From: a virus
DNA: 57,314 nucleotides
Direction: 5' to 3' (one strand)
IMG/VR virus record: IMGVR_UViG_3300020438_000044
Location: 1 to 57,314 of that record
Each line of letters opens with the position of its first letter. Within the stretch, counting starts at the first letter, position 1. The position numbers were made by a program, and so were the translations under genes. Shown here in pieces: positions 4,448-49,922 of this stretch. The notes beneath the pieces are model-generated. The model worked only from the letters and a program-made list of their open reading frames with translations. It ran no database searches and was not told the origin of the DNA.

Positions 4448-5446
4448 TTAGTCCTCCTTTGGTTTGTTAATCAGATTTACTGTATCATGTAAATGAGATG
4501 GTGCAAGATGCGAGTATCTCATTACCATGTCAAGAGAAGTGTGACCAAGTAAGTCAGCAACTGCTCTCAAGCTTGCGCCTTTCTGCACAAGATGTGATGC
4601 AAACGTGTGTCTGCAATCATGGGGTTTAAAGTCTTCAATGTCTGCCTTAGCACATGCTTCACTGAAATACTTGTAAAATATATATTTGTTCCAAGGGTTG
4701 TAGTCGTCTGACCTAAAAACAAAATCATCGTTACCCTTGAACTCACGGAAACCATAGTCACTAACGTAGTCCACAAAGTTAATCGGAACTTTACGTCTGA
4801 GTGTACGTCCACCCTTACGAGAGACGACAACAACGTGGTAAGATTCCAACTCTCTTGCTTGCAGGTTGAATGCCTCGCCAAGTCTGACACCAGTATAAAA
4901 CAAGAACCTCAGTATCGGTTGCAAACTATAGTGAGACAAAGCAATCAACTTGTCTCGCTCTCTCTCCGTCAGCCATCGTACTCGTGCATCATCAGACGTT
5001 GGTTGCTTCAGCCTATACGTTGGCACACTACGACCCATGTCATTGTTATAGTTAATCATCGACTTAATAGACGTCATCTCTCTCGAAACACTATTGTCTT
5101 TGTTGCCTCGTCCCTTGAAATAGTCCATCACCTCGGCTTGTTCCAACGAACAGAGTACTCTGTGACCAAACTCATTCTGAAACAGACGTAAGTTAACCAA
5201 GTCTGTGCTGCCTGGCATGCTGCTTCGGCTGCCCAGGTACAACTTTATTGCGTCTGCCACTGTCGTCTTCGTACCCATGTCAACTTTCTTACCTGCGTCA
5301 CGGAATATTTCTCGCATTCTTTCTTTGGCTAACGTCTTCTGTCCAACAGAATACCCAGTTGACTTACGGATACGATGGGTGTAGCCCATCGTATCTTTAA
5401 CAAATCCATGAGCATACAGATGTCCGTTCCTTTCAACTAACTTCAT
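4448..5446 (-). CDS. int: Tyrosine recombinase (integrase)
   Basis: 332 residues, full length. All catalytic residues are visible: Arg188 (TGVRLGEAF), Lys211 (SRKGG), His276 and Arg279 (PHDCRHTFASH), His302 (LGHTSLDMVMRYSHL) and the nucleophile Tyr311. The N-terminus has a short strand-rich arm-binding region and residues 60-140 are the SAM-like core-binding domain. It should integrate the phage DNA at an attP site, which I could not locate: there is no tRNA fragment next to the gene. It is the next-to-last gene of the minus-strand operon and overlaps the gene upstream by 14 bases. Confidence 0.93.
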   Translation of the reverse strand: MKLVERNGHLYAHGFVKDTMGYTHRIRKSTGYSVGQKTLAKERMREIFRDAGKKVDMGTKTTVADAIKLYLGSRSSMPGSTDLVNLRLFQNEFGHRVLCSLEQAEVMDYFKGRGNKDNSVSREMTSIKSMINYNNDMGRSVPTYRLKQPTSDDARVRWLTERERDKLIALSHYSLQPILRFLFYTGVRLGEAFNLQARELESYHVVVVSRKGGRTLRRKVPINFVDYVSDYGFREFKGNDDFVFRSDDYNPWNKYIFYKYFSEACAKADIEDFKPHDCRHTFASHLVQKGASLRAVADLLGHTSLDMVMRYSHLAPSHLHDTVNLINKPKED

Positions 5447-8738: not shown

Positions 8739-8904
8739 TGTCGACCTCCTTACATATTGTTGAAATTTTATCGTAATTGTCTGACTTGAGCCTCGCTTTG
8801 TCTACTCGCTTGCCAACCTCAAACCAAAACCTAAACTGCATACCACGTGAGGGATACAACTTCAGCCAGTGATTATGTATTGTTACTGGTTTCATCATTC
8901 CCAT
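8713..8904 (-). CDS. 63-aa protein of unknown function
   Basis: Starts at 8904 in a TAATG overlap with the cobT stop, with GGAGG eight bases upstream inside cobT. The sequence is basic with aromatic strands (HNHWLKLYPSRGMQFRFWFEVGK) and a helical C-terminus. It is translationally coupled to cobT; the function is unknown. Confidence 0.6.
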   Translation of the reverse strand: MGMMKPVTIHNHWLKLYPSRGMQFRFWFEVGKRVDKARLKSDNYDKISTICKEVDNDFKERKI

Positions 8905-10790
8905 TATGCAGACCTCCTATTGATACCAACCTTCGTACCCAATAGCATTTGTGATAGCTCGCCCATCGCACTCTTGGCAAGCTCTTCTACAGTCTCCACT
9001 ACTACGTGGTTCGTGTAGTATCTCTTCACTGACTCATCACAGATGCCGATACCAACAACGTCTGTGTCTTTGTCAGCCTCAATGTTCTTGACAGTGCGTT
9101 CAAGATGTAACCTCAAGGACGTATCATAGTATGTGTCGCATGCAGGACTACCATCAGACAAGACGATTAACACTTTACGTTTCTCGTTCCTATCTTTAAG
9201 TCTGTCATATGCATACTGCACACTCTCGCCATCGACATTGTTGCCACCACTACACTGAGCAATCGTAGATATTGCACCCTTAGCCTCAAACAATCGCTCC
9301 TTGAAGTGCTTGAATATCCACATGTCAATGTTCTCCCAACGTGTATGCATACGTCTGTCTTCCCATTCTTTACTCCTTGATGGCTTGCCAGGCGTGTCTC
9401 CTCTACCACTATTGAACCCAAGTATCTCGTATGCAATACCAGTTCTGTCTACACATTCAGCAATCGCCATCGCACACATCATCGCAGTGTGAACCTTTCG
9501 ACCACCCATAGAACCACTCAAGTCAACAAGCATGGTCAACGCAGTATCCATCTCACGTCTATCAGCTTTCATCTTGAATACATTTGGCTTGCCGTTGAAC
9601 GCAGACGGAAACCTACGACTATCCAATCGTCCGTCCTCCTTGCCAAAGTCCCAATCTCTCTGCGACTTGGCGAACAATGCTCTCTCAATGGAACGTCTCA
9701 TCATGTTCACATCGCCTTGCATCATGTTCAACAACTGGTCGTAATGAGATGCTTGACCTTTCGCAAGTCTCAGATTGCCATACGAATACCGACCATACTT
9801 TCTCGCATCGTCAGTTCTGTGATGCCATCTGTCATGTGCAGTACTCTGTGCAGAGTATGAAGTACCTTTCTTCAAGTCACTGTGTTCTGATTGCGTTCTC
9901 TTCTTGACGTCATCAACTGCGTTCTTGTACTCAAACTCTTCACATACCTCGTCTTCCTCAAAGTCATTCGTGGAAGATTCGTTGCCACCTTGCTCGTTTG
10001 TGAACCTCTCGCTTGGCTTATCGCCCTTGCCTTCGTCCTCGCCATCTCCTTTCTTCTTGCCTTGGCTAACGTCTGAGTCTCCGTCTCCTTTCTTGCCTTT
10101 CTCGCCATCTCCTCCAGTGGGTGTGTCCTCTGGTGGTGGTGTCTTCTTGCGTGGTTCGATGTCACGTATCTCTTTCTCAATCTTCTTGGCAAGTGCAATC
10201 ACGTCCTTTGTATTCTTGCAATCGTCAATCTGCTTAGTCCATCTCTCCACCTTGGCTCTCACGTCTGCGTTTAACAAGTCCATGCACTCCTTGGCAAGGT
10301 TATCGCCATAGTCTTTGCGACCTTCCCATGTGATGGCAACTGGTGCAACCCATGTGAGATTGTCCATGTCTTCCTTGTCAAACCCACCAGTGTTTAATGC
10401 CTCCATGAAGTTGTCATTGACACAGTGAGACGTGGCAATGAGGTTCTGCTTTGAACCTGCATACTCGTCCATTACTTTCTTCTCCAAGTAAATGTCCTCA
10501 CATGCGTTCTGCAATGACATCAACAACTTGTTCCCCTTGTTATCCTTGGCGAACTTGTTGAGTTCTCTGAAGTTTGTGTGACGAATGTGACCACTCTCAT
10601 GGTCAACGTATCCACGCACGATAGATTGGTCATACGTACTTATGTCTTTCTCAAAGTCCATCGCTGGCAGTATGATGTTCTTCCCATCTGTGCAAGCATC
10701 TGTACCTTGGAACTCAACTGATACGTCTTCCTTCCTACCGAATACTGATGAGGTCTTGCGAACCTCGTGTTGAAATAAATCCGATTTCAT
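8904..10790 (-). CDS. cobT: CobT-like protein: HExxH motif plus VWA domain
   Basis: 628 residues, the usual size of CobT. Residues 64-68 are HESGH, a zincin-type HExxH followed by a conserved-looking IRHTNF. The middle (about 218-290) is a long Asp/Glu/Lys/Gly-rich low-complexity linker, as in CobT. The C-terminus is a von Willebrand A domain with an intact MIDAS: Asp423, Ser425 and Ser427 in VDLSGSM, later LSDGSP. In cobaltochelatase CobT pairs with CobS and CobN for cobalt insertion into the corrin ring. Here cobS is next door but no CobN is seen, so the pair may serve host CobN or may have been repurposed as a MoxR/VWA-like chaperone. The start has GGAGGACA before ATG. Confidence 0.82.
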   Translation of the reverse strand: MKSDLFQHEVRKTSSVFGRKEDVSVEFQGTDACTDGKNIILPAMDFEKDISTYDQSIVRGYVDHESGHIRHTNFRELNKFAKDNKGNKLLMSLQNACEDIYLEKKVMDEYAGSKQNLIATSHCVNDNFMEALNTGGFDKEDMDNLTWVAPVAITWEGRKDYGDNLAKECMDLLNADVRAKVERWTKQIDDCKNTKDVIALAKKIEKEIRDIEPRKKTPPPEDTPTGGDGEKGKKGDGDSDVSQGKKKGDGEDEGKGDKPSERFTNEQGGNESSTNDFEEDEVCEEFEYKNAVDDVKKRTQSEHSDLKKGTSYSAQSTAHDRWHHRTDDARKYGRYSYGNLRLAKGQASHYDQLLNMMQGDVNMMRRSIERALFAKSQRDWDFGKEDGRLDSRRFPSAFNGKPNVFKMKADRREMDTALTMLVDLSGSMGGRKVHTAMMCAMAIAECVDRTGIAYEILGFNSGRGDTPGKPSRSKEWEDRRMHTRWENIDMWIFKHFKERLFEAKGAISTIAQCSGGNNVDGESVQYAYDRLKDRNEKRKVLIVLSDGSPACDTYYDTSLRLHLERTVKNIEADKDTDVVGIGICDESVKRYYTNHVVVETVEELAKSAMGELSQMLLGTKVGINRRSA

Positions 10791-10800
10791 ATTGTCCTCC

Positions 10801-12816
10801 TTATGTAAAGATTCTGTTTACGATACCTTTGAGTACGGCTCTGTCTTGTTGCGTACATCTATCGAGTATCACTGCTTCAAGTGCCTCGTTAGTAGCATCT
10901 CTGCTATTGAAGAGGGTAGTAAATGCCACCATAGTGTCTGCAAGTGAAAGCATACCACGTGGTGATATTGGCTGAAGCACTTTCGATGTAGTAAATGCTT
11001 CAAGATGTTCCTCAACATACTTGTTGAGTTGGTCACGTTGCTCGTCTTTCAACGCAGGAACTTTGTTCTTAATGAGTTGGTCACGTTGAGCAATGTCAAG
11101 GTATGGCACACTGACCCATATGGTAAATCTGTCTATCATCGCCATACTCTGTGGTCTTGCTCCTTGATACATACCGAACTCATCGCCTTGACCTACTGTG
11201 TTACCAGTGGCAATCATTCTGAACTGTGGGTGTGGTTGAACGACACGTCCTCCGTCTTCTGTCAGCATCAATCCGTTACCCTCAAATGCTCTCTGCATCA
11301 CATAAGCAACGTCTGGTCTGATGAAGTCAATTTCGTCAAAGCAACCAATGCATGGTGTGGACATCATCTTTGGCAAGATACCCTCAACGAACTTGGACTC
11401 CGTAGCACCACTTGCACCAGTAGTCAGCACGTCTCTGCCAAGTAAGTCCATACGTGTGACCTCACTATCAAAGTTCACTCTCATGAATGGGAAGAGCAAT
11501 CTCGCACATATCTGCTCAACCAACGTGGTCTTGCCACTACCAGTGTGACCATGAATGTAGATACGTTGATTAGTAACCAACCCATGCAGAACTCTCAGCA
11601 AGCTTGATGGTCTGAACACATATCCGTGGTCAATCGCAGGGACGTAAGGGTGTGGACTATCCCATTCCCACACGAGAATGTCGAAGTCGAACATCTTTTT
11701 ACTCGAAGATGGAATGTCGAATACCTCATGTGCTTTCTTGGTCACTTGTTTGCCACTTGGTATCTCGCCACTCGCTTTGACCTCTGATGGTTTGACAGAC
11801 GTTACAGACATACGTGATAGTCTGCTCTCCATGTCTTTGAGTTGTGCCTCTATGTCATTCCTCACACGTTCACTCTCGTCAAAGTCTCTCGATAGTTGCT
11901 CAATGTTTGCCAACCCAACTGTCTTCAACGTCATGTTCACAAGGTTAAGGCTATCTTTACTCGCCTTCTTTACGATGTCAGACACAGAAGTACGTTTAGA
12001 TGTCGGCTCAGTTTTTAACCCAATAGGTGAACGCATTTGTGCAAGGTGGTAGACAACGTGAGTTACAATGCCATTGAATGGAACACCTTTCTCTGCGAGT
12101 TTCTCTGCTTGTCTCTCCCATTGACCATACTTGTCAGTGAAATCTCTAGCAACCAATGGCTCGTTCTCCATGAGAGCATCTAAGCCGTGCATCTTTGGCT
12201 CGAAGTCATTTGTGTCCCATGTATCGCCAAAGTTCTCGAACACCACTTTCATAGCCACTACGATGTCATTCGTCTCGACTTGGTAGTCTGTCAATAAGCA
12301 CGTCTTTGAGACAATGGCTAACATTGCAGATGCACCGAGTGCATTTGCATCAAAGCAATCAATCTCTTCGGCATCAATGGCAGTCCATGCAAGTGATGAC
12401 CTGCTTTTTGTCCCTGCTATCCAACGTAATCTTTCTTGGTGCAACTCGTCTGACACTTCTTTACCTCTGCCAAAGTCGTATCCACTGTGTGTCTTCGAGT
12501 TTGGAAAGCCATAACGAGTTGGGTCAAGTAGTGCATCAAGCACGTTACTGCAACCATAGTCGTTGAATACGATGTCAAACAACGCAGGAATTGAACAAGC
12601 CATGATGACACCACTCACAGTTGGTTTGTAGTCTGGCATTGTTGCGTGAGTACAACGTCTCTTTAGGTCTGCAATATCCACAGAGTTGTTTTTGTGAAAC
12701 TCTGCAAGTATTGGCGAAGCTAGGCTACGTAAGTGACTTCGCATTTTGCCATAGTCGTATTGGCTGAGGGTGTAAAGTTTGTCCCTCATGTGGTTTACTC
12801 TCTTCTCATCAATCAT
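10801..12816 (-). CDS. cobS: CobS-like AAA+ ATPase with long N-terminal extension
   Basis: 671 residues from ATG 12816, with AAGGAGGA at 12821-12828. The AAA+ core starts near residue 390: Walker A GHTGSGKT (Lys429), the CobS-like FPFMRVNFDSEVTRMDLLG stretch, Walker B CFDEIDF (Asp494, Glu495) and the GNTVGQGDEFGMYQG segment characteristic of CobS. Bacterial CobS is about 330 residues, so roughly the first 340 here are an extra helical region with a coiled coil around 310-360. In cobaltochelatase CobS hydrolyses ATP for CobN; phage CobS homologues are known from marine myoviruses. The gene has its own strong promoter and is followed within ten bases by cobT. Confidence 0.82.
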   Translation of the reverse strand: MIDEKRVNHMRDKLYTLSQYDYGKMRSHLRSLASPILAEFHKNNSVDIADLKRRCTHATMPDYKPTVSGVIMACSIPALFDIVFNDYGCSNVLDALLDPTRYGFPNSKTHSGYDFGRGKEVSDELHQERLRWIAGTKSRSSLAWTAIDAEEIDCFDANALGASAMLAIVSKTCLLTDYQVETNDIVVAMKVVFENFGDTWDTNDFEPKMHGLDALMENEPLVARDFTDKYGQWERQAEKLAEKGVPFNGIVTHVVYHLAQMRSPIGLKTEPTSKRTSVSDIVKKASKDSLNLVNMTLKTVGLANIEQLSRDFDESERVRNDIEAQLKDMESRLSRMSVTSVKPSEVKASGEIPSGKQVTKKAHEVFDIPSSSKKMFDFDILVWEWDSPHPYVPAIDHGYVFRPSSLLRVLHGLVTNQRIYIHGHTGSGKTTLVEQICARLLFPFMRVNFDSEVTRMDLLGRDVLTTGASGATESKFVEGILPKMMSTPCIGCFDEIDFIRPDVAYVMQRAFEGNGLMLTEDGGRVVQPHPQFRMIATGNTVGQGDEFGMYQGARPQSMAMIDRFTIWVSVPYLDIAQRDQLIKNKVPALKDEQRDQLNKYVEEHLEAFTTSKVLQPISPRGMLSLADTMVAFTTLFNSRDATNEALEAVILDRCTQQDRAVLKGIVNRIFT

Positions 12817-12841
12817 AAAGTCCTCCTTGTGTGTAATGATG

Positions 12842-12870
12842 ATTGTAATCAATGAATGACAGTTTGTCAA
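12842..12870 (-). promoter_or_regulatory. Near-consensus sigma-70 promoter for cobS operon
   Basis: On the minus strand: TTGACA (12870-12865), 17-base spacer, TACAAT (12847-12842). This is the best sigma-70 match I found in the window. The transcript would start near 12835 and reach the ATG at 12816 through a leader of about 20 bases that holds AAGGAGGA. The -35 box lies inside the dyad at 12857-12869. Confidence 0.75.
12857..12869. promoter_or_regulatory. Operator-like dyad over the cobS -35 box
   Basis: Perfect palindrome TGACAGTTTGTCA, that is TGACA-N3-TGTCA. A related copy, TGACA-N4-CTGTC, sits in the opposite orientation at 12908-12921. Two similar dyads about 50 bases apart, one of them covering a strong -35 box, look like binding sites for a repressor. 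The regulator is not identified. Confidence 0.5.
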
Positions 12871-15271: not shown

Positions 15272-15476
15272 ACAAAAGGACGCAAAGCCTTCTAATATAA
15301 CTTTACAGGACTTAGGCAAGGCAATGTCGCAGATAGACCTAAGCAATGTGCCACCAAACAAGATACAGAACGCAGTATTCGACCAATTCATGAGAGTAAT
15401 GCAAGACACAGTGCAGTGTGGCAAGACATCATACGAGATAAAGCAAAGCAGAAGGCTTAGAAACAGACTTGGCTAA
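15255..15476 (+). CDS. 73-aa protein between TerS and TerL
   Basis: The TTG start at 15255 is supported by AAGGAG (15243-15248) inside the end of terS. The product is a mainly helical, basic protein with a ...SQIDLSNVPPNKIQNAVFDQFMRVMQD... core and a C-terminal QSRRLRNRLG. It overlaps both terminase genes, so it is probably made in step with them. I do not recognise it; a packaging accessory role is inferred from position only. Confidence 0.65.
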   Translation: MKITNKQKDAKPSNITLQDLGKAMSQIDLSNVPPNKIQNAVFDQFMRVMQDTVQCGKTSYEIKQSRRLRNRLG

Positions 15477-17094
15477 ACTATCTCAGGCAGAAGTCGCCAA
15501 GTATCTACTAAAACTAAGGGATTCTCAGGAATCATTCATAGGTTTTGTACGTTTACAGTACCCAGAATGGGAACTTGCAGACTTCCAAGTAGAATTAATC
15601 AACACATTAGACAGATTAGAGAAAGGAACTCTAGGAAAGAACAACCTTCTCATTACTATGCCACCACGTCACGCCAAATCTACCTTTGGCACAGTCCTAT
15701 TCCCTTCATATTACATGGCTAAGAAGCCAAACAGGTTCACAATGTCCTGTTCCTACAACTCACAACTTGCCACAGACTTTGGCAGACAGATACGTGGGGT
15801 GGTAGAGCAGAAAAACATGAACCAAGCCTTCAAAGACTTTCACTTATCAAGAGATAGCCGTGCCGCAGACGTGTGGCGTACCGAAAGTGGTGGCGCATAC
15901 TTCGCTGTGGGTATCGGTGGTACAACATCTGGACGTCCTGCCAACTTATTAATAGTCGATGACCCAATCAAGTCTCGTGAAGAAGCAGAATCCATGACCC
16001 AACGCAACAAGACATGGAACTATTACACATCAGCACTGGCTACACGTCTTCAACCAGAAAGCGATGGGACTCCTCCACGCCAGATAATAATTTTAACACG
16101 TTGGCATGTGGACGACCTTGCAGGTCGCCTCATGCAGACCGAAGATTGGCAAGAAGGTAGGTGGGAACACGTCAACTTTCCTGCTATCAAAGAAGTAACG
16201 TCAGGTAAAATGAGCAGAAGAATGCTATCAGAAGACGACCCCAACTATCTAACTTCAGAACAGTATTCCAAAGTATCTCCTGCCAAAAGAAACATATCCA
16301 CAACTCAAGAAGAACCATTGTGGAAAGAAAGGTTTCCATTAGACGAACTCAAAAGACGTGAGCGTCTCAACCCACGTGAGTTTGCAAGTCTATACCAACA
16401 GATGCCATACGTAGAAGGTGGTAACTTAATCAAAACAGAATGGTGGCAAAAGTTTCCAGAAGGTCTAACCCCAGAAAACTTTACAAGCTTAGTCATTGGC
16501 GTAGACACAGCCTTCAAGAAGACAGAGACAGCAGACTACTCAGCAGCAGTAGTGGCAGGCATGGATAGAAACGGAGACATGTACATCATAGAAATAGTCC
16601 GTGGCAAGTACGACTTCCCAGAACTCAAGCAACGCCTCATACGCCTCAACAACAAGTGGAGAGGAAAAGGACTCCGTGGCTTATACATAGAAGACAAGGC
16701 ATCTGGTCAATCAATCATACAGGAACTCAAAAGAGAGAGTGGCATATCAATCATTCCATACAAAGTTGTACACGACAAGGTAGCAAGAGTGAACGCTATC
16801 CTCCCTCTCATAGAGGGAGGAAGAGTATACCTTCCACAGACAGCAGATTGGTTAGACTCATTCATAGACGAGACAGTTCAGTTCCCATCTGCCAATCATG
16901 ACGACCAAGTAGATGCCATGACAATAGCACTAGACACACTATCCAGAACCCATGTTGGCTCAGAAGCATGGGAACTTCAAGGCAGTATGTCATCACTCAA
17001 TAATGTTTCACGTGAAACATTGGGCAAGTCTCTATTAGACACAGCAACAAAAATTAAATCTAAATGGACAGGTTGGGGATTGCCGTCTAATTAA
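15469..17094 (+). CDS. terL: Terminase large subunit
   Basis: 541 residues from TTG 15469, overlapping the gene before by eight bases; the ribosome site is weak, so translation is probably coupled. The ATPase domain has Walker A MPPRHAKST (Lys70) and Walker B LLIVDDP (Asp164, Asp165). The RNase-H-like nuclease has GVDTAF (Asp346), IEDKASG (Glu408, Asp409) and HDDQVDAM (Asp479, Asp482). It pumps DNA into the prohead and cuts it. The C-terminal extension after residue 490 is variable, and its DNA contains a perfect parS palindrome encoding VSRET (513-517). Confidence 0.95.
   Translation: MAKLSQAEVAKYLLKLRDSQESFIGFVRLQYPEWELADFQVELINTLDRLEKGTLGKNNLLITMPPRHAKSTFGTVLFPSYYMAKKPNRFTMSCSYNSQLATDFGRQIRGVVEQKNMNQAFKDFHLSRDSRAADVWRTESGGAYFAVGIGGTTSGRPANLLIVDDPIKSREEAESMTQRNKTWNYYTSALATRLQPESDGTPPRQIIILTRWHVDDLAGRLMQTEDWQEGRWEHVNFPAIKEVTSGKMSRRMLSEDDPNYLTSEQYSKVSPAKRNISTTQEEPLWKERFPLDELKRRERLNPREFASLYQQMPYVEGGNLIKTEWWQKFPEGLTPENFTSLVIGVDTAFKKTETADYSAAVVAGMDRNGDMYIIEIVRGKYDFPELKQRLIRLNNKWRGKGLRGLYIEDKASGQSIIQELKRESGISIIPYKVVHDKVARVNAILPLIEGGRVYLPQTADWLDSFIDETVQFPSANHDDQVDAMTIALDTLSRTHVGSEAWELQGSMSSLNNVSRETLGKSLLDTATKIKSKWTGWGLPSN
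17002..17021. promoter_or_regulatory. parS: parS-like ParB-binding site inside terL
   Basis: A 20-bp perfect palindrome, AATGTTTCACGTGAAACATT. The inner 16 bases, TGTTTCACGTGAAACA (17004-17019), equal the widely conserved chromosomal parS consensus bound by ParB/Spo0J. By rough arithmetic, a given 16-mer is expected about 1 in 75,000 times in a genome this size. It lies in the variable C-terminal tail of terL, where codon choice is free to vary. No parA or parB gene is present, so the host ParB would be the reader. Confidence 0.8.
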
Positions 17095-17133: not shown

Positions 17134-19068
17134 ATGGCTGATAAAACTGAACCAAGAAATTATAGAAGTGCTGATTATGTTCCTCCTCATAATGATGGGG
17201 TTATAGTTGACCTATCCGAATTTGCAGAACGTATCGTAGCATATGATGACATCTCATCTGACCTAACCGAAGAACAGGAAAGAAAGATTGTAGACTATGT
17301 TAAGTCAATGACTGACATGTCCTACAACAAAATCAGAAACAGGTACGACCACTGGAAAGAAGCAGACAGAGCGCATGACGTCTACGTAAAGCCTGGCACA
17401 ACAGACTTCAGAGAGAAAGCAGTCATTGCAGATACTCGTGCAATAGCAGACACAGTATTAACATACCTCATGGCAGCACTGGGTGGACGTAACCCAATGT
17501 TCCAACTTGAAGGTCTAAACAGAAAGTCTCGACAAGCATCACTCATACTTGAACGTGTCTTACACCAACAGATGAGACGTACAGCAGGCGAAGCACGTCT
17601 TGCACAGATGCTACTCGACAGCATACGATATGGTTTCGCACCAACCAAAGTCGTATGGAACGCAAAGACAAATCAAAACCAGATGATTAACTTTGACCCA
17701 CGCAGAGTATTCCCAGACCCACGTGTCAACTTTGGCGATTGGGAAAACATGCAGTTCGTAGTATTTGCAGACTACGTATCGTACAACTCAATACTCTACA
17801 GTGGTCTATATCCAAAGCTACGTAAGTTCCCAGAATTACGTAAGAAGATGTCGCCACCAAGAAACGCATGGAACGCACATCACTGGCATAAGGAACAGGG
17901 CAGAGGACTTTCAATCGACCCTGCAACAGCCAACCAACGTGAGAGAAAAGACCACGCCTACTTTACACTGGGCGACTCACGTGTACTTGATGAAGCTTGG
18001 GTACGTTTATCTGGACATGAAATTGGAATACCAACCATAGACCAAATCTATCTGGTCATAACAATCCTAGACGAGAACGTAGTTATACGTTTCCAACTGA
18101 ACCCATACGGCAGACAGATGCCTGTAGTTATTGGTGGTCTTTACCAAGACTCCCACAAAACTTATGGGCAGTCTCTCTACGATTTAATTTTACCTATGCA
18201 CGATATAGCAACCTACTTATTGCGTAGCCGTATCGACAACATATCAGCAGCCCTTAACAATCTTATATTCGTTGACCCTACACAAGTGTCTGTACCAGAC
18301 CTTGTGGACAGAAATCCTTGGGGTGTCGTTCGAACTCTGCCAGGCTCTAAGCCAGGTGATGGCGTATTCATAGCGCAAGTTCCAGACGTCACACGTGGAC
18401 ACTTCAGCGATATAAGTGCTATGTCAGAACTCAAACAACGTGTATCAGCAGCGTCTGATGCACAACAAGGTATACCGACACCAGACGTTAGAACAGCCAC
18501 AGAGATACAACGTCTGACCCAACTCGGTTCACAGCGTCTAGGTGTACTAGCACGTATCATGTCAGCAACAACAATGCGTCCTATGGTTCGTATGATGGTT
18601 TCTAATATACAAGATGCCCTTGCTCTTTCTGGTTCTGTCAAGCTTGAGAAAGAAAACATGCCGTCACAATTAGAGGGTATGGTAGAAGATGGATACATGG
18701 ATTTTGATGTATCTAAAGACCTTCAAGGGGACATTGACTATCTAGTAATAGACGGCACTCTTCCCCTTGAACCCACACGCAACGCAGAAACCTGGATGAA
18801 CATGCTACAGATAATGAACCAGACAGGCTTAACAATGGAATACAATGCAGGACAAATCGCAGAGGAAGCCATACGTGCAATGGGAATAACAGACCTAGAC
18901 AGGTTCAGAGTAAACCAAGAGCAAATGAATAAACAAGGTCCGACCCCATCACAGCAAATGCAAATCATGGAGAAGATGCGTGGCGCATCTGTCAAGTCTG
19001 GCGAGGACGTCAACAGAGAAGTAGAACGTGGAAACCTCGTTCCAATGAGAGGTGGTCAAGGTGGATAG
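17134..19068 (+). CDS. Portal protein
   Basis: 644 residues, directly downstream of terL. The features fit podovirus-type portals: a helical N-terminal region with RNRYDHWKEADRAHD, then AVIADTRAIADTVLTYLMAALGG, a wing with FDPRRVFPDPRVNFGDWENM, and a stem/clip region (MPVVIGGLYQDSHKTYGQSLYDLILPMHDIATYLLRSRIDNISAAL) followed by a Gln/Thr-rich helix. Twelve copies form the DNA channel at one vertex. The C-terminus is Gln/Gly-rich and unstructured. No Shine-Dalgarno is obvious before the ATG. Confidence 0.85.
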   Translation: MADKTEPRNYRSADYVPPHNDGVIVDLSEFAERIVAYDDISSDLTEEQERKIVDYVKSMTDMSYNKIRNRYDHWKEADRAHDVYVKPGTTDFREKAVIADTRAIADTVLTYLMAALGGRNPMFQLEGLNRKSRQASLILERVLHQQMRRTAGEARLAQMLLDSIRYGFAPTKVVWNAKTNQNQMINFDPRRVFPDPRVNFGDWENMQFVVFADYVSYNSILYSGLYPKLRKFPELRKKMSPPRNAWNAHHWHKEQGRGLSIDPATANQRERKDHAYFTLGDSRVLDEAWVRLSGHEIGIPTIDQIYLVITILDENVVIRFQLNPYGRQMPVVIGGLYQDSHKTYGQSLYDLILPMHDIATYLLRSRIDNISAALNNLIFVDPTQVSVPDLVDRNPWGVVRTLPGSKPGDGVFIAQVPDVTRGHFSDISAMSELKQRVSAASDAQQGIPTPDVRTATEIQRLTQLGSQRLGVLARIMSATTMRPMVRMMVSNIQDALALSGSVKLEKENMPSQLEGMVEDGYMDFDVSKDLQGDIDYLVIDGTLPLEPTRNAETWMNMLQIMNQTGLTMEYNAGQIAEEAIRAMGITDLDRFRVNQEQMNKQGPTPSQQMQIMEKMRGASVKSGEDVNREVERGNLVPMRGGQGG

Positions 19069-21814: not shown

Positions 21815-22138
21815 ATGCCAAATAACTTTAAATTAAAAACTGCTCAAACTACTGCTTCTTTAGTAACCATGTACACAGCCACAAGTGTCACAACAACAGT
21901 CATTGGAATGACAATGGCTAACATTAGTGCAAGTTCGGTTACTGCAAGTGTAAAGATTGTAAAAGATGGTGGAACAGATATTTACATTATCAAAGATGCA
22001 CCCATAGCTGTTGGCAGTTCGCTAGTTGTAGTAGGTGGAAATCAAAAAGTAGTCTTAGAAGCTGACGATGCAATTCAAATTGTTTCAAGTGTAACAGCTA
22101 CTGTTGAGGTCAGTTTATCTATATTGGAGATGAGCTAA
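21815..22138 (+). CDS. 107-aa small beta-rich virion protein
   Basis: Starts MPNNFKLKTAQTTASLVTMY and is mostly Thr/Ser/Val beta strands (TSVTTTVIGMTMANISASSVTASVKIVKDGGTDIYIIKD). This pattern is common among small proteins encoded between fibre genes in marine phages, thought to be jelly-roll or Ig-like tail parts. It lies four bases after the fibre stop and one base before the next start. The structural role is inferred from place and composition. Confidence 0.65.
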   Translation: MPNNFKLKTAQTTASLVTMYTATSVTTTVIGMTMANISASSVTASVKIVKDGGTDIYIIKDAPIAVGSSLVVVGGNQKVVLEADDAIQIVSSVTATVEVSLSILEMS

Positions 22139-40370: not shown

Positions 40371-43300
40371 ATGGCAGCGAATTTATACAATCAACGTAAC
40401 TTTAAAAATATAGACTTTAGTCTTGATAATGTTTCGATACCTCAAGACCAAGCAGATTATACATCATCTGTAAATCCAACAAAGATACTTAAAGACCCAC
40501 GTTTTCTTCAAGACCTTAGAGATTACTATGAAGAGAAAGAAGGGTATCCAGTAGGTTGGTCAGACGAAGCTTTAGTGGAAGCTTTTTATGGCGACTCAAC
40601 TTGGAGAGAACTCAATACAGTTTCTGCTATAGGTGGTGCATTCGAACCTTGGGGAATGGGAACTGAATCCAGAGAACGTGCAAAAAGAATTGAGTCCGTC
40701 TGGAAACAGCTACCTATGTTTTGGCAGGAAGGTGGAAGAGGAGCCGCAACTGCTCTTCCAGACATTGCAGGCGCATTAATAGCAGACCCACTTAACCTAA
40801 TCCCAGTAGGAGCCGCGGCTAATACAGCAAAGGCTGCAATTATTGGTGGTAAGACTGTTGCAGGTGCAGTCGCACGAGGTGCAGGAAAAGCCGCACTTTA
40901 CGAAGGTGGTATTGCAGGCGCACAAGAAGGCATTGTAAATGCATCTACGCAAGCAAGAGATATACAACTTGGTTTACGAGATGGGTTTAGTAAAACTGAA
41001 CTTGGTTTAGCTACAGGTTTAGGAGTAGGGCTAGGTGGTGTAGTGGGTGGTGGATTAGGTATTCCGTCTGCATTAGCAGGAGCAGCAGTAGGTAGGAACG
41101 TAGTCAATGACTTATTGGCTAAAGGTTTAACAAGAGAACAGATAGCCGCTTTACCTAAAGAATCTTTAGCAGGATACCAAGAAGTATCTGGCATACTAGG
41201 CGCACCACAACAGGCAGACGAAGTTGTTACAGAAACAGCAGAAGAAACAGTACCATCTCCGATAACTATTGACGAATTAATTGCGAAGCAAGAAGAAAAA
41301 ATAACTATCTATAAAGCAAGTGGTGCAGAAGTTGACGAAGAAGAAACATTCTTAGTTTTATTACAAGAAGCCAAAAAATTTGACGAAGTTATTAAACCTA
41401 ACACAGAAGAACTTATAACAAGTTTACAAAAGAAAGGTCCTAGAGGGGTCACAAAAGCAAGAGAAATGCAAAGGTGGCTCAATGAAGTAACCAGAGTAGT
41501 AGAAAATATTAGAAAAGAAGATGGTTCTGACTTTGATGGCGACCTTGACCAAATACTCGCATATCTAAGAGAAAATCCTTATGGTAAGAAACTTGAGCAA
41601 ATAGCATCAGACGATGTTATTCCTGTGACACCAGGTGGTCAGGCAGGCAGACCACGAGGAGACGTAGAATTACAGGGACAACAGGGAGACGCACAGGGAC
41701 AACAGGCACAGCCGCAGACGAATGCTGATACAATAGCAGACGAAGTTATTTCTGAAGCAGAAGCAGCCGATGCTGCTCTTCCTATGGAACAGGAAGTTAT
41801 AGATTACCTTAGAAAGAATGGAATTGAGCCAGACCAAGTTACTCCTAAAAAAGGAGAAACGACAGTCAGCATGAAAAGAGCGCAAAATGTTGTTACTTAT
41901 AGAAAAAGAAAAGCAAAAAACCAAGACCCTACTGTAGAAAGTTCTGAGCAACAAGAGTTTGATAGTTTAGTAAAAGACCTTAGAGCAAAAACAGGGATAG
42001 AAGTAGACGAGCCAACTAGAGTATCTTTGGCTAGAGCTTTTGAGGAAGAAAAAGGTTTAAATAAAAACACTGTTAAGATTGATATTGATGACCTTGCTGA
42101 TGACATGCTTCCAGAAAGAGATTGGATTGCAGACGAGCAACTTAATCCAGATGAAATAAAACAATACAAAAAGATTTTACAAAGATTTAAGAACCAAGCA
42201 GCGAAAGCACCAGAAGACTCTCCACTTAAAATTACAAAGGTAGTGGAAGCAAAAGCAAGAATGGCTTTTAGAAATCAAAGAACAAACATACCAGGCAAAG
42301 CAAGAACTACTGGTGAGTCAATAGAAAGAGCAGGACAAAACGTAGGAGCAGGCAGAGAAGAGTCTGGAAAGATACAAGGAATACTTAAAAAAGGCGAGAC
42401 TATTGGCAGAAGACCTGGCAGAGCAGATAACACTAAATACGCAGACAGAGAAACTGCTTATCTTAAATCTAAAGAAGCAAGAAGAGACTCACCAAACAGG
42501 CTTGTAGCTTTTTATGCAAATCAAAAAACTATGGCAATAGATGAGAATGGTGTAGAAGCACGTGCGCCTATAGGTGCTAAGTTATATGCAGACGGATACA
42601 CAAGAAAAGTATTCTTAAACAAAGAAGCCGCTTTTAAAAGGACAGGATTAAACGCTCCAGACGGAGAAGACACAGCTAGTTTAATTGGTCAAGCTACAAA
42701 AGAAGTTAAAAAAGATAAGCTACCACAAAAACTTACCTCATCAGAAGCAGTTCAAGAGGCTATAGAAAGTGGAGATGCAAAGGAACTATTAAGAGTTATA
42801 CGTGCAGTATCTAATGATACAGTTGATGACCTTCCTGTTAATCAAAGCACAATACAAACTCCAGACTCAGACGTTGCTCCTGTTACTAGAGGCGACAAAA
42901 GACTTATTGTACAAAACAAAAATAATCCTGATGACGTCAGGATTATTTCTAAAAAGCAAGTTGCTGACGGCAAAGGCATTGAAGCAATCATTGGTCAAAA
43001 AGGTGGAGTTGCTTCAGACCCAAGTAACTGGACTGTTAAATATGCTCCTGCCGATACAAAAGTATTTGGAAGAAAACTTAGAGAGTTGTTTGATAGTTTA
43101 CCAGACGAAAAAAACGCAACTGGTGCTGGTAGTAGAGTTGAAGCAGGTGGTGCTACAGGCATAGGTGAGCCTATAGATATAAAAGAAGCATTAAATTTAA
43201 GAACTAGACTAACAGATGAAGACCTTCAAATACTAGGTAGGTTTAAAATTCTAAACAAAAGTTTAAATCCTATGGGTGGTGGCGAAGAAATGTTTGGAGA

Positions 43301-46300
43301 GCTTCCTGCTAGTATTGGGACATCAGTAGTTGATATTGATTATAAGTCTGTTAGAGAAGCGATGCTTTTTTTAAGCATGCAAGCTAAATGGTCTAAAACA
43401 AGGAATGCTCACAAAGAAGTGATAGAGGTATTTAAAGGTCTTATGGATTTAGAAAATAGACTTCTGCCACCAGAAGGCTTTATTGATACTGAAGCAAATA
43501 GATTTGCAACAATTAATAATTTAGAAAAAATATTCTCAGGATATAGCTCAGACGAAATATCAGCAGCTAGAAAATTATTACAAAATCTTGGTGGCGACCC
43601 ATTTATAGGTCCAAGAATAACAAGTATGGGTTCAAATAATTACTATGTAAATAGAGGTTTCTTAGAAGGTCAACCAGAAGGCGTTCCTTCTATAAACATA
43701 GCGCAACCAAGTACTATAGGAGCAGGAAGCGTTCCAATGAACGCAAGGCTTCTACACGAAACAGCACATTGGGCTTTTGATAATATTCTTACAAGTAAAG
43801 ATAAGCTTGAGTTCTTAGAAAAGATGACAGAGTATTACACAGGAAAAGTTGTTGGTGGTGATGGCATACTAAACACAAGGAAGCTAGATGAAGGTTCTTA
43901 CACTAGCCCACTTAAAGAAGAGTTAGCTTCAGACCCAGAAGCAATGGTGTTTGCAAATGCCCTTGAAGGTCCTGGCGAATTTTTTGCAAATCAATTTAGT
44001 GCATGGGCAGGCAGACAAGATGGTCTTGTAATAAAAGACGAGGGATTTTGGAAAAGAATTGCAGGTTATCTCAAAGGAACATTTGATAGATTCTTTTACA
44101 AGACACCAATAGACCCAGAGCTAGAGCCATTCTTTTTAAAGATACTTCCAAACAAAGACGAGATTGGAAAGAGAAGTTTAGGTACACATAAACCTACTAC
44201 AAAAGCAGGCAAAGCAGCAGAAGAAAAACATAATCAAGTAATGCAGATTGTAACTAGGTTACAAGAATTTACAGAAATATACCCATTAGGAACTATGAGT
44301 TCAGAAGGATTTGTAAATCAATTTACTGAAGACCTCTGGTTTCTAGCTAATATAGTTTACAACAAAAAGAAGTCTGGTGAGTTTAAAATGATAAGCCCTT
44401 ATGCTAGAAGGCTTATTAAAGAAAGACTTAAAGACGTAAACGAAATATTTAAAAACGCAAACTCAAGAGGCGAAGATATAAATTGGGTATCATTGGCTAA
44501 TGAGATTGGCAATGCCACTGAAGCAGGAAATGCAGGTGTATCAATCATTGACCCTGCAAAAATGGATACAGTTGCACAGCATCTTACAGAGTTATATTGG
44601 CATGGATACCAAGGTCCAAACTTTAAAGGTGGCGACAGGTTTGCAGTAAGAGACGCAGACGGAAATGTAACTGGCTATAACTATGGCAAGATAAAAGACC
44701 TAGAAAGAACATCAATGACTCGTATGTTTGATTTTGTTCTTGATAGTCTTGAAAGAAACTTTTCAAAAGTTGAAGATACAAACAAGGTAATGAGAAACAC
44801 TCATACAGAACAACCAGACCTTATTGTTTCTAAAAAGAAATCTGAAAGAGGAGCAGGAAAACAGTCTAACTCAACTAAAAGAATATTAAATAAAGAAGAA
44901 GCTGACTACAATGAGACTATTGATACTGCAAAAAAAGAATTTAAAAGTAAAAAGAAAACTCCTAAAGAAAATGCCAAGGTCAATACATCAAGTGCAGGAG
45001 AATTAACAACTAAAACACTACCACAGTTACAAAAAATGTTGCGTGAGCATAGTGGTACAGACTACGGAAGGCAAATAGCAGAACACGTAGTACGTAAACT
45101 TAAAACATCTACAATGTCAGAGAAGGCTTTTGGTAAAAAGATACCTAGAGAATACGTTGAGATGAGCAAGTTTGAACTTGAAGCAGTATTAAATGATGCA
45201 AACTCAAAAGGCGATACAAAAGCTAGAGACTTTGCAGCTAGAGAAATACAAAGACGAGCTAGTAAAAGGGCATCAAAAAAGAAAGGCATGGATACATCAA
45301 AGCATGTTGGCATGATAGCTAGGTCAAATAAAATTGATAACACAATTAAAATAGAAATAGACGATTCTAATGGTATACAAAATTCTGATGGCATACCTGC
45401 AAACGCAAGACCAATGGTTAAAGAAATACTGTCTTACGTTACACATCGTGACCCAGAGAGAGAAATAGCGGCTCGTTCAATTATATACAGAATGCTTAAC
45501 ATAATGGGTAAAGTCTCAAGAAAAGACAGATTTTCAAATCCTATTTTATCAAAAGATATAGCAAAAATTATAGGTAGAGATTACCTTCTAAGAGGTACAG
45601 ACGAATTTTCTGATTTTAAAGGCTCAGATTTTTCTATACTTAGAACATTTGCAAGAACTCTAGGTCAAGAACTTAATGGAGTTCCTGGCGATGAGACAGT
45701 AAGGTTCTTGTCTGGCATGACTCTAAGAGCATCAATGACAAGAGATGAGCTTGACAAAGTAACATTTGCTTTTAACCAACTGACTCCAGACAGACAGAAT
45801 AAAATCATGGACACATATAAAAGAGGAGGTGGTACAAGCCTTGTAGCATCAGGTGCGCCAGACGAACTTGTTCATGAATACGCAATGATTGATTGGTTAG
45901 CAGGTAACTTCCAGAAGATTTACTCATCAGCAGACGATAGAACTTTAATGAACCTTACAGACGAAATGCTTATGGGTGTGGCTTCTAAGCTAGACCAAAG
46001 GTTTACAGAAGGAGATGTGTTTGGAACAGTTACTCAAATGTATCATAGAAATATGGAAGAAGTTGCTTACGTAATAAATGGTCTTGTTAAAAATGATGAG
46101 TTCAAAGATAAATACTTTGGATTAACTAGACTATATGGAGACATGTTTATAAGAAACAGAAGAGGGGGACTGACTTTTCCGATTATGGATAATGAAGTCG
46201 TGCATTCATCACAAGCAGCAGACGCAGGAAGGTCTGCTTGGAAAAATGCTACACAAGAAGAAAGAGTTAAGATTGTAAACTTTACTAAGAATGGTGTAGG

Positions 46301-49300
46301 TCACAACAGAATTGATGGTGAGCCAGTAGTTTTTTATCATGGCACACCAAATGGCAAAGCACTAAACGGAACTGATACTGGTACAGTTATGAACCTAAGT
46401 TCTTCAAATTCTTTATATGGTAGAGGTATTTATCTGACAAAGAACCCAGTGGTAGCTGAAGAGAGTTACGCAAGAAAACAAACTAAAGAGTCACTTAATG
46501 TACAGATTGAAAGGCTTGCAATAAGTCAAGAAGGCAAAGACGAATTAGAAGATATTGCATACGAGCTTGCTCAAGTTAGAGGTAAAATATCTCTTCTTAA
46601 AAGACAAAACGCAAAATTTGTTGATGCTGATGAAAATGGAAACGCAGATGAGTTACAAAGTTTTATAGAAACAGTTATTTTAGAAGACGAATTAAGAGTT
46701 TTAACTGCACAAGAAAAAGGAAAAGTTGCCCTTCTTGAAAGGTCAGGCATTACTCTTGACCCATATGTAATGCCTTCGTATGTTCAGCTTAGAAACCCAT
46801 TAGATTTTAGAGAGAATACAAGATACTCTGTTGATGACAGAATATTCCCTACAATATCTGAAGGTATTTATGCTCATCTAAGAAACTCAGGAGAAAGTGA
46901 TGCAGATATTCTTGATGCATTTGTTGATATGGAACAAGCTCTTGAAGGAAAAGAATTTATAACTGGCGTTGAATTGTATGAGTCTTTTGGCAGGCTTATG
47001 AATAAATTTTCTAGCACAAAGGCAGAGGCAAAAGATGCATTAACAGACGTTTTCCAAGAATTAGGGCATGATGGTCTTACTGTTAGTCATACTAATACAG
47101 TAACAGATGTTTCAGATGTAAATATAGGCAATCCAATTTACCATGAAGGTGTGGTTTTATTTAAACCAAATCAAATTAAACACGTTAGAGCTAAAAACTT
47201 TGATGCTGAGTCAGGTCAAGTGTTTAATATTGAATTAGGTGGAGGTGTTCCAGAGGGTACAAATGGTTCTATAATTATGGCTTCAATAGACGACCCATCA
47301 TTAAAAGTAGGAGATATATCAACAGGTAAGTTTGGAGAACTGTTAGAAATAGACGGCAAGTCCAGAACATTTACAGGTGTTGCGTCTTCAATGATTAAGA
47401 AAAGACCACACAACGAAGCAGAGGTAGAGGTAATTAGAAATTCTTCTGCTCCTACATGGTTTCAATCTCAGTCAGATAGACTAAATAAGATAGGTGCTAG
47501 ATGGTTAGGCAACTGGTACAAGAACCACTTTACAGAAATATCTGAAAAGTTTGCAGGTAAGTTCATGCCTATAAATAATTTAATGAGAGACTTGCCAGAC
47601 AGTGATGGTAGCCTAAGACGTTGGTTCAGAAAATCAACAGGTAGCGTCATGCAAAGTCAACCAGAAAGCTATGGAAAAATAGTCAGAGCTTTAAGACGTG
47701 ATGTAAATAGTAGGCAGTACAAGGCTCTTAATCCACAAGAAAGAGCAGTAGTAGACAAGATAAGACAAACACTTGATGCAGAACGTGTGGCATTAAAAGC
47801 GTCTGGTTTCCATGTTGGTTACAGGAAAAACTATTTACCACAGGTTTGGAATCAAAATTCTATACGAAAAAACAAAGACGAGTTCTTGCAAGGTATGGAA
47901 GAATACTATGTTAGAGAACAGGCTAGTCTAGGAAAAACGCCAGCAGACGGAGAGTCAAAAAAGTTTGCAGAGCAAATATATTTAAGACTGACAGAGGACG
48001 CAGCAGAAGATGGCGTCTTTCTTCCACACAAAGACATACGTGGTCTTTCTAAAAATCCTGGCAATGACAGTGTAGACTTCTCAAGAGTTCTTAACATTGG
48101 AGATTATCCAGAGTCACTTAATGCAATGGAGAAATTTTTAGAGAACGACCTTGATGCCATACTTGTTAAGTATCTTGAAGGTAGCACAAGAAGATTGGTA
48201 CACTCAGACAAGATGGGCGTTAATACACACGCTGTTAGCGATTACATATTGGCTTCAAACGAAGGAGCAGATGGTATTGCAAAACTTCTTTCAACATCAA
48301 AAGTATTTAAAAAGAATATTAGAGGAATGTCAGAAGACGGAAATGTAGTTGAGTCAGTTCTTACTGATACAATTAGAATGCCTTTTGAAGGAAACCAATT
48401 TAGAGCAAAACAATTTGCAGATGAACTTATTAAAGTTCATACACAAAGTGGTTCATCAGCAGCCAGAAAAATGATTTATGACTTGTACCCAAAGATGAGC
48501 GTGACATACAAAAGACGTGCTGATGCAATTATAGGAGCATTAGATGACTTTAAAGGTCAGTCTGGCTCAATAGCATACGAAAGCGAGAAGTTCATTGACA
48601 ATGCTATGAGAGTAGCAATGAAGAAGCCATTGAGTGGTAGCAAGTCTTTGATGGAAGCATCTAAGTTTATACGAACTGTAAACAACGTAACACTACTTGG
48701 CTTTACCACACTCACATCATTAGGTGATGTGGTGCTACCAATCATAAGGTCTGGCTCTTTCTCAAGTTGGGCTAGTGGTGTTGGTAAATGGGCTACTGAC
48801 CCAGATTACAGACGTATGCTTAACAACGTAGGTGTTGCAATGGAAAACATTGTGCATGAAAGAATGGTTCATATGTATGGTGCGCCAGACAATAAGCTTT
48901 CACATGCTTTCTTTAGTGCAACATTGCTTACTCCTTGGACAGACTTACAAAGAAAGATTGCAGGAGCTACAGGACTAGAAGCATTAAAGACAATGCAACA
49001 ACAGGCAACAAGACACCATAAAGCAGGAACTCCTTACTCGCAACAGAATGCTAAATATAAAACAGCACATAGGTTCTTAGTAAGATATGGATTAGAAGAG
49101 TACTTACCAAGAAAAAATAAAGCAGATGTAAGCTTAACTGATGATGCCGTCTTGAATAACGATAAGGTTAGAATGGCTATCATTAAATTTGCAGACGAGA
49201 GTATCTTCCAACCTAATCCAAATGACGTTCCATTATGGGCGCAGACACCTATAGGACAGCTTGTATTTCAGTTGAAATCTTTTCCACTTATGATGTCAAG

Positions 49301-49922
49301 AATGGGTGCTTACGTTCTGCAAGAAGCAAATCAAGGAAACTTAAAACCATTGATTTCATTAGCACTTCTCGGACCTACATTTGGTATGGCAACATTATCT
49401 GCCAAAGATATTATACAATCTCGTGGTGGAGAAGATGGTACAAGTCCAGAGCTTAGAAAAAGAAACATAGCAAAAGCACTTGGCTATGATTCAAAGACAC
49501 ATGGTGAAGATTACAATGACTTCTTGGGTTGGTACTTAGAGGGCATGATGATTATGGGTGGCTTTGGATTGATGGGAGACGTACTTCATTCTGTAACATC
49601 TCAAGTGGACAATGGTGCATATGGTCAAAACAGAATATGGTCTTCACTCCTCGGACCTTCCTATGGTCTGGGTAACGCAGCGATTACAGGAGCAGCAGGA
49701 ATACAAGACGCAGTTATTGGTGGAGACAACAGCAATGCTAAAGAGAGGTCTGCATGGAGAGAACTTGCAACTAGAATACCAATACTTGGTGGCATGAGAA
49801 ATCTTAGAGAAGGTATTGTAGACACTATGGCAGGAGAGCAAGGTGGAAAGAGTTCTTCTGAACCAGGTTGGGGTGATGCAAAGTGGACATCAAAAAGTAA
49901 TAAGTCAGGTTGGGGTGCATGA
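40371..49922 (+). CDS. Giant ejection/polyvalent protein with zincin and ADP-ribosyltransferase-like domains
   Basis: 3183 residues, one sixth of the genome. Residues 118-170 and 209-243 are Gly/Ala-rich hydrophobic segments that could cross the cell envelope. Residues 1129-1133 are HETAH, with Glu1203 in GEFFANQFSAW as third ligand: a gluzincin-like metallopeptidase. Residues about 1980-2275 match the ART-PolyVal layout: FYHGTP (His1990), YGRGIYLT (Tyr2021), VQLRNPLDF, LGHDGLTV and a final VVLFKPNQIKHVRA. The C-terminus has further hydrophobic helices (about 2990-3075). No lytic transglycosylase motif is obvious. It is probably ejected ahead of the DNA and carries effectors into the cell, as proposed for polyvalent proteins. 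Confidence 0.8.
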   Translation: MAANLYNQRNFKNIDFSLDNVSIPQDQADYTSSVNPTKILKDPRFLQDLRDYYEEKEGYPVGWSDEALVEAFYGDSTWRELNTVSAIGGAFEPWGMGTESRERAKRIESVWKQLPMFWQEGGRGAATALPDIAGALIADPLNLIPVGAAANTAKAAIIGGKTVAGAVARGAGKAALYEGGIAGAQEGIVNASTQARDIQLGLRDGFSKTELGLATGLGVGLGGVVGGGLGIPSALAGAAVGRNVVNDLLAKGLTREQIAALPKESLAGYQEVSGILGAPQQADEVVTETAEETVPSPITIDELIAKQEEKITIYKASGAEVDEEETFLVLLQEAKKFDEVIKPNTEELITSLQKKGPRGVTKAREMQRWLNEVTRVVENIRKEDGSDFDGDLDQILAYLRENPYGKKLEQIASDDVIPVTPGGQAGRPRGDVELQGQQGDAQGQQAQPQTNADTIADEVISEAEAADAALPMEQEVIDYLRKNGIEPDQVTPKKGETTVSMKRAQNVVTYRKRKAKNQDPTVESSEQQEFDSLVKDLRAKTGIEVDEPTRVSLARAFEEEKGLNKNTVKIDIDDLADDMLPERDWIADEQLNPDEIKQYKKILQRFKNQAAKAPEDSPLKITKVVEAKARMAFRNQRTNIPGKARTTGESIERAGQNVGAGREESGKIQGILKKGETIGRRPGRADNTKYADRETAYLKSKEARRDSPNRLVAFYANQKTMAIDENGVEARAPIGAKLYADGYTRKVFLNKEAAFKRTGLNAPDGEDTASLIGQATKEVKKDKLPQKLTSSEAVQEAIESGDAKELLRVIRAVSNDTVDDLPVNQSTIQTPDSDVAPVTRGDKRLIVQNKNNPDDVRIISKKQVADGKGIEAIIGQKGGVASDPSNWTVKYAPADTKVFGRKLRELFDSLPDEKNATGAGSRVEAGGATGIGEPIDIKEALNLRTRLTDEDLQILGRFKILNKSLNPMGGGEEMFGELPASIGTSVVDIDYKSVREAMLFLSMQAKWSKTRNAHKEVIEVFKGLMDLENRLLPPEGFIDTEANRFATINNLEKIFSGYSSDEISAARKLLQNLGGDPFIGPRITSMGSNNYYVNRGFLEGQPEGVPSINIAQPSTIGAGSVPMNARLLHETAHWAFDNILTSKDKLEFLEKMTEYYTGKVVGGDGILNTRKLDEGSYTSPLKEELASDPEAMVFANALEGPGEFFANQFSAWAGRQDGLVIKDEGFWKRIAGYLKGTFDRFFYKTPIDPELEPFFLKILPNKDEIGKRSLGTHKPTTKAGKAAEEKHNQVMQIVTRLQEFTEIYPLGTMSSEGFVNQFTEDLWFLANIVYNKKKSGEFKMISPYARRLIKERLKDVNEIFKNANSRGEDINWVSLANEIGNATEAGNAGVSIIDPAKMDTVAQHLTELYWHGYQGPNFKGGDRFAVRDADGNVTGYNYGKIKDLERTSMTRMFDFVLDSLERNFSKVEDTNKVMRNTHTEQPDLIVSKKKSERGAGKQSNSTKRILNKEEADYNETIDTAKKEFKSKKKTPKENAKVNTSSAGELTTKTLPQLQKMLREHSGTDYGRQIAEHVVRKLKTSTMSEKAFGKKIPREYVEMSKFELEAVLNDANSKGDTKARDFAAREIQRRASKRASKKKGMDTSKHVGMIARSNKIDNTIKIEIDDSNGIQNSDGIPANARPMVKEILSYVTHRDPEREIAARSIIYRMLNIMGKVSRKDRFSNPILSKDIAKIIGRDYLLRGTDEFSDFKGSDFSILRTFARTLGQELNGVPGDETVRFLSGMTLRASMTRDELDKVTFAFNQLTPDRQNKIMDTYKRGGGTSLVASGAPDELVHEYAMIDWLAGNFQKIYSSADDRTLMNLTDEMLMGVASKLDQRFTEGDVFGTVTQMYHRNMEEVAYVINGLVKNDEFKDKYFGLTRLYGDMFIRNRRGGLTFPIMDNEVVHSSQAADAGRSAWKNATQEERVKIVNFTKNGVGHNRIDGEPVVFYHGTPNGKALNGTDTGTVMNLSSSNSLYGRGIYLTKNPVVAEESYARKQTKESLNVQIERLAISQEGKDELEDIAYELAQVRGKISLLKRQNAKFVDADENGNADELQSFIETVILEDELRVLTAQEKGKVALLERSGITLDPYVMPSYVQLRNPLDFRENTRYSVDDRIFPTISEGIYAHLRNSGESDADILDAFVDMEQALEGKEFITGVELYESFGRLMNKFSSTKAEAKDALTDVFQELGHDGLTVSHTNTVTDVSDVNIGNPIYHEGVVLFKPNQIKHVRAKNFDAESGQVFNIELGGGVPEGTNGSIIMASIDDPSLKVGDISTGKFGELLEIDGKSRTFTGVASSMIKKRPHNEAEVEVIRNSSAPTWFQSQSDRLNKIGARWLGNWYKNHFTEISEKFAGKFMPINNLMRDLPDSDGSLRRWFRKSTGSVMQSQPESYGKIVRALRRDVNSRQYKALNPQERAVVDKIRQTLDAERVALKASGFHVGYRKNYLPQVWNQNSIRKNKDEFLQGMEEYYVREQASLGKTPADGESKKFAEQIYLRLTEDAAEDGVFLPHKDIRGLSKNPGNDSVDFSRVLNIGDYPESLNAMEKFLENDLDAILVKYLEGSTRRLVHSDKMGVNTHAVSDYILASNEGADGIAKLLSTSKVFKKNIRGMSEDGNVVESVLTDTIRMPFEGNQFRAKQFADELIKVHTQSGSSAARKMIYDLYPKMSVTYKRRADAIIGALDDFKGQSGSIAYESEKFIDNAMRVAMKKPLSGSKSLMEASKFIRTVNNVTLLGFTTLTSLGDVVLPIIRSGSFSSWASGVGKWATDPDYRRMLNNVGVAMENIVHERMVHMYGAPDNKLSHAFFSATLLTPWTDLQRKIAGATGLEALKTMQQQATRHHKAGTPYSQQNAKYKTAHRFLVRYGLEEYLPRKNKADVSLTDDAVLNNDKVRMAIIKFADESIFQPNPNDVPLWAQTPIGQLVFQLKSFPLMMSRMGAYVLQEANQGNLKPLISLALLGPTFGMATLSAKDIIQSRGGEDGTSPELRKRNIAKALGYDSKTHGEDYNDFLGWYLEGMMIMGGFGLMGDVLHSVTSQVDNGAYGQNRIWSSLLGPSYGLGNAAITGAAGIQDAVIGGDNSNAKERSAWRELATRIPILGGMRNLREGIVDTMAGEQGGKSSSEPGWGDAKWTSKSNKSGWGA

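Follow-up and report, generated by a model that had tools for sequence, protein, structure and literature searches.

Phage genome and parS site

The DNA analysed in this study, referred to as the window, is the complete virus record IMGVR_UViG_3300020438_000044 (57,314 bases). Its two ends consist of 314-bp direct terminal repeats (97.8% identical), indicating a terminally redundant genome. The features needed for the following analysis are:

4448..5446, minus strand: tyrosine-type integrase gene (PHROG 1, E 9e-50)
15469..17094, plus strand: terminase large subunit gene (terL), whose product shares 74% identity with TerL of Roseobacter phage CRP-810
17002..17021, no strand assigned: parS palindrome AATGTTTCACGTGAAACATT, core 16-mer at 17004-17019, identified by exact match and a chance estimate
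17134..19068, plus strand: portal protein gene (PHROG 1216), starting approximately 115 bp past parS
22081..22096, plus strand: weak parS-like sequence TGTTTCAAGTGTAACA with 2 mismatches, the second-best match in the window

PHROGs also assigned a primase-polymerase, portal, major head protein, and integrase; combined, the TerL, portal, capsid, primase-polymerase, and integrase sequences identify the window as a CRP-810-type phage, with direct comparison to CRP-810 for TerL only. Integrative lysogeny is expected from the integrase, and no tRNA was detected in the window as a candidate attP. A domain search of the genome found neither ParB_N (PF02195) nor HTH_ParB (PF17762), bearing out the original prediction that the phage lacks parB. 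No ParA was seen among the matches of approximately 50 ORFs in general PHROGs and Pfam scans. Elsewhere in the genome, adjoining CobT-like (PF11775) and AAA/CobS-like genes (8904-12870, minus strand) possibly form a MoxR-VWA type pair rather than serving cobalamin synthesis, and a phage-borne Aspartyl/asparaginyl beta-hydroxylase domain (PF05118) is encoded at 50748-51488 (plus strand).

The inner 16-mer of the palindrome, TGTTTCACGTGAAACA (17004-17019), agrees with the parS consensus at 16 of 16 positions with zero mismatches, and the window contains no other perfect palindrome of at least 16 bp. The original description of a perfect 20-bp palindrome with a consensus parS interior, the only such site and located in a variable part of terL, was confirmed in each respect: the next-best match has two mismatches, and the site lies in frame within the variable C-terminal tail of terL, past the conserved nuclease part, where the translation reads ...NN-VSRET-LGK.... 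The weaker sequence at 22081-22096 is found in the near-identical genomes L123 and L124, is missing from relatives L125-L127, and is probably a chance resemblance.

For the exact site, the chance expectation is 1.1e-5 to 4.0e-5 copies in the window under Markov models of order 0-3. With the phage's own codon usage, the probability that the peptide NVSRET is spelled as an exact parS is 0.004, and when 22 large genes were shuffled synonymously 2000 times, an exact parS turned up in 11 of the shuffles. The site could nevertheless be a coding accident, arising where VSRET is encoded in a protein tail that tolerates change, and passed on to close relatives; an expectation of only about 1e-5 copies per genome speaks against this explanation, which was further weighed with the relatives of the phage.

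Conservation and recurrence among relatives

Two contigs (L123 and L124) are near-identical to the window. In three further close relatives, L125, L126, and L127 (TerL approximately 95-96%; DNA approximately 92% for L125 and L126), the 18-bp core ATGTTTCACGTGAAACAT is unchanged, and the bases just outside it differ on both sides. Loss or alteration of the palindrome in close relatives had been named in advance as an outcome contradicting the original prediction; the site is exact in all three, a weak test when taken alone. According to a synonymous-conservation test on close relatives, the five parS codons would be expected to remain unchanged by chance with a P of about 0.34-0.37, and the conservation in L125-L127 is therefore no proof of constraint by itself. 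The test was set aside as evidence because its outcome, despite agreeing with constraint, is not significant and is compatible with drift.

This statistical weakness of the VSRET-codon conservation is in line with a coding accident, as is the lack of the site in most members of the CRP-810-type family. In relatives with a TerL identity of approximately 75%, both parS and the VSRET peptide are absent from terL; CRP-810 and G013 contain no parS even with up to 2 mismatches allowed, and no parS was found in 31 more contigs of the family, most of them fragments. A coding accident does not readily account for G009 (55.8 kb, TerL 74%), which holds a second, independent perfect copy at 34286, midway along a virion gene of 9.6 kb and 3193 codons and again read in the VSRET frame, as in the window terL. 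Two relatives of G009 (L329 and L330) retain this copy exactly, and two others (L327 and L328) carry the variant TGTTTCACGTGGAACA, which has 1 mismatch through a Glu-to-Gly change and also occurs in other phages examined. The window homolog of the G009 virion gene is a late-region gene of 3183 codons at 40371-49922 (plus strand).

Two or more lineages of the CRP-810 family have parS, at unrelated positions, which points to separate gains. The initial emphasis on a site hidden within terL proved not to be essential, as relatives at approximately 75% have no terL site, CRP-810 has no site at all, and the parS of G009 lies in a different gene; the terL position was accordingly rejected as an essential feature.

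parS upstream of terL in L030-type phages

A second set of 80 marine relatives was picked by the L030 TerL alone, and its members are mutually related rather than independent events. Exact parS is present in 41 of these 80 relatives and, in 39 of the 41, precedes the aligned start of terL by 109-143 bp, whereas none of 40 distant composition-matched palindromes was found in the set. The L030-type parS is often accompanied by a second palindrome, TGTTCCACGTGGAACA, at a distance of 23-24 bp. In L251-L263, the two palindromes (TGTTTCACGTGAAACA and TGTTCCACGTGGAACA) lie as a pair approximately 119 and 143 bp ahead of terL, with their order swapped between relatives, and the two-palindrome segment is wholly missing in other relatives, as if inserted as a unit. 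The phage contigs L018 (2657-3444) and L045 (10535-11462) each have five exact parS sites ahead of terL and lack a ParB_N domain.

A site approximately 110-145 bp ahead of terL, with conserved sequence before it and the start codon after it, and sometimes paired, would be suited to local gene control, with ParB nucleated at parS repressing or timing late genes (terL, portal) and thereby tying packaging to the host cell cycle. Pseudomonas ParB is reported to repress promoters that adjoin parS3 and parS4 (PMC5521831). However, the exact site is missing from about half of the L030-type genomes, the window parS is found at the end of terL within a rightward series of genes, and the G009 parS is situated mid-way in its virion gene, which together make gene control a quite unlikely explanation.

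Lone parS sites across other phages

In IMG/VR, the exact 16-mer was found in at least 120 contigs, whereas two control palindromes with the same base composition occurred in 33 and 31. Among the matches listed, a relative of the window TerL was present on 34 of the 120 parS contigs and on 0 of 33 control contigs, a co-occurrence that partly reflects which phages are sampled. A search of 50,697 GenBank phage records with an 18-mer and two control palindromes returned 315 records with parS, many of them near-copies, versus 5 and 0 for the controls. Therefore, lone parS sites are enriched over controls in phages generally. With the phage-wide enrichment well above controls added to the G009 copy and the low expected count, a coding accident is considered improbable.

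The hosts of the GenBank carriers include Listeria, Microbacterium, Arthrobacter, Gordonia, Bacillus, Lactobacillus, Ruegeria, and others, and microviruses also carry parS. No enterobacterial phage appeared in 60 evenly spread rows of the parS carriers, though the collection contains many phages of this kind. Many phages with a lone parS are generally regarded as strictly lytic. ParB_N was absent from all 40 parS-bearing viral contigs tested and from 9 of 10 parS-bearing phage records tested; the one tested record with the domain is Microbacterium phage KaiHaiDragon (49017-49274).

Since one marine phage group often has parS near terL, the palindrome might also be the target of a phage packaging or regulatory protein whose motif happens to coincide with parS. 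This would have to account for a motif equal to the host parS at all 16 bp and for its recurrence in unrelated phages (Listeria, Gordonia, Bacillus, microviruses) in other genes and positions, and the marine phages tested have no ParB_N or HTH_ParB protein; such a target is, of the explanations weighed here, highly improbable.

parS in the likely host family

Rhodobacteraceae were chosen as comparison hosts because CRP-810 infects a roseobacter. The exact 16-mer is present in 55 of 61 Rhodobacteraceae genomes, usually as two copies approximately 1.9 kb apart, and a reversed control 16-mer is present in 0 of 61. In the genomes of L331 and L374, parB is located approximately 1.2-1.5 kb away from the nearest exact 16-mer. 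The identity of the phage 16-mer with the Rhodobacteraceae site indicates that the phage carries the form that such hosts use. No integrated, parS-bearing relative of the phage was found in a search of 84,980 genomes for prophages, in which the nearest match was a 21-kb stretch without parS in Poseidonocella sp. HB161398 (TerL 55%).

Proposed role of the site

Combined, these results suggest that host ParB very probably targets the palindrome. This reading is supported chiefly by parS having recurred independently in other phages, which is stronger evidence than the conservation within terL. The preferred interpretation, in which we place about even confidence, is that a genuine parS centromere site has been taken up by a temperate alphaproteobacterial phage without parB and recruits host ParB, most likely to the benefit of retaining and sharing out unintegrated or stalled phage DNA.

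ParB loads at parS as a CTP clamp. During infection or after excision, host ParB-CTP would load at 17004-17019, its clamp would close, and ParB would then spread across the terL/portal region. The phage genome could thus be handled as an origin-proximal replicon by host ParA, together with SMC or polar anchors, so that unintegrated or stalled phage DNA would be kept on the nucleoid or origin region and split between daughter cells. Binding, spreading, and benefit are all predicted here from sequence. In Caulobacter, ParB spreads approximately 2 kb from one parS site (PMC5815017), a range that would include the start of the portal gene. The same figure is a counterpoint to the proposed role, as one site per genome would form only a small ParB zone. 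Another awkward point concerns the integrated prophage, as extra chromosomal parS sites distant from ori lower fitness in Caulobacter (PMC5815017).

The earlier reading of the site was upheld in its core, namely a consensus parS on a phage without its own ParB and hence a very probable target of host ParB, and was not upheld in its suggestion of a plasmid-like prophage. The latter is unlikely, as many carriers are lytic and the window encodes a tyrosine integrase; CRP-810, moreover, integrates at tRNA-Thr (PMC11288001).

The varying position of the site among relatives favors an effect on the whole genome, either placing and inheriting phage DNA or drawing off ParB, over the control of a single gene. 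Of these two, we favor positioning and inheritance during unintegrated or stalled infection first and ParB titration next. As a decoy, dozens of replicated phage parS copies would draw ParB off the approximately two chromosomal sites of the host and block segregation or division. A single site would suffice for this purpose once the phage copy number climbs, and its position would be irrelevant, as is seen from its location in terL (window), in a giant virion gene (G009), and between genes in others. A lone parS is also carried by Listeria phage P100 and by DSS3P8, both of which we take to be strictly lytic. Furthermore, SGI1 parS copies destabilize a competing IncC plasmid (PMC10954446). A decoy might, however, be expected to multiply its sites, yet 103 of the 120 parS loci among the matches listed have a single site and a few have 3-5, leaving titration rather unlikely as the main explanation.

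Comparison with known systems

Among the papers searched for phage parS without parAB, only the phi29 and SGI1 cases and no survey of lone parS sites were found, a result that does not by itself establish novelty. One phage-defence paper from 2026 was rejected as a precedent because its parS belongs to an engineered lambda-parS reporter. The likely alphaproteobacterial hosts of the window phage do not form spores. Phage phi29 uses host Spo0J for spore entrapment (Meijer et al. 2005, cited in PMC9437464). The window phage resembles the phi29 group in its predicted reliance on a host ParB homolog without parAB of its own; it differs in encoding an integrase, whereas phi29 is virulent and uses Spo0J for spore entry. 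Within the phi29 group, phage B103 carries an exact parS plus a copy with 1 mismatch and has no ParB_N.

SGI1 hijacks the ParABS system of the IncC plasmid by means of parS mimics; as proposed for the window phage, it is a mobile element with parS only that borrows the ParAB of another replicon, thereby gaining stability (PMC10954446). The borrower in that case is an integrative mobilizable element and the lender a plasmid, whereas the presumed donor for the window phage is the host chromosome. As in a hijacked ParABS system, the window phage has parS without parB, and the same 16-mer lies close to parB in its likely host family. CRP-810 belongs to the same family (TerL 74%) with a similar gene set and an integrase, and differs in having no parS within 2 mismatches; parS and ParB are unmentioned in the paper describing it (PMC11288001). 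Phage-plasmids with parABS (P1-type, some actinophages) share the centromere site on a phage genome and differ in encoding their own ParA and ParB, none of which were found in the window phage. The window parS thus seems to act in the manner of phi29 and SGI1, with the difference of being found in a temperate marine phage and, apparently, in many unrelated phages.

The same lone site in many unrelated phages suggests that host segregation machinery is being borrowed. We consider it fairly probable that a lone consensus parS recruiting host ParB is a general strategy that lytic and temperate phages have repeatedly gained where the host has chromosomal ParABS (Alphaproteobacteria, Actinobacteria, Firmicutes, with their microviruses included) and that is largely missing from phages of enterobacteria, which lack chromosomal ParABS. 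If host ParB binds, many phages would steer chromosome segregation with 16 bases and no gene, through an element that is invisible to gene-based annotation. This would widen the phi29/sporulation case to abundant ocean phages and make the placing and keeping of an infecting genome in slow-growing cells testable. The site is small enough to be removed by synonymous changes. Isolates whose hosts are known are available, such as DSS3P8 on Ruegeria pomeroyi DSS-3, a phage with three exact parS sites. Cultured and quite different phages with an exact parS and without ParB_N include Bacillus phage B103 (L417), Butyrivibrio virus Arian (L418), DSS3P8 (L415), and Spiroplasma phage 4 (L423).
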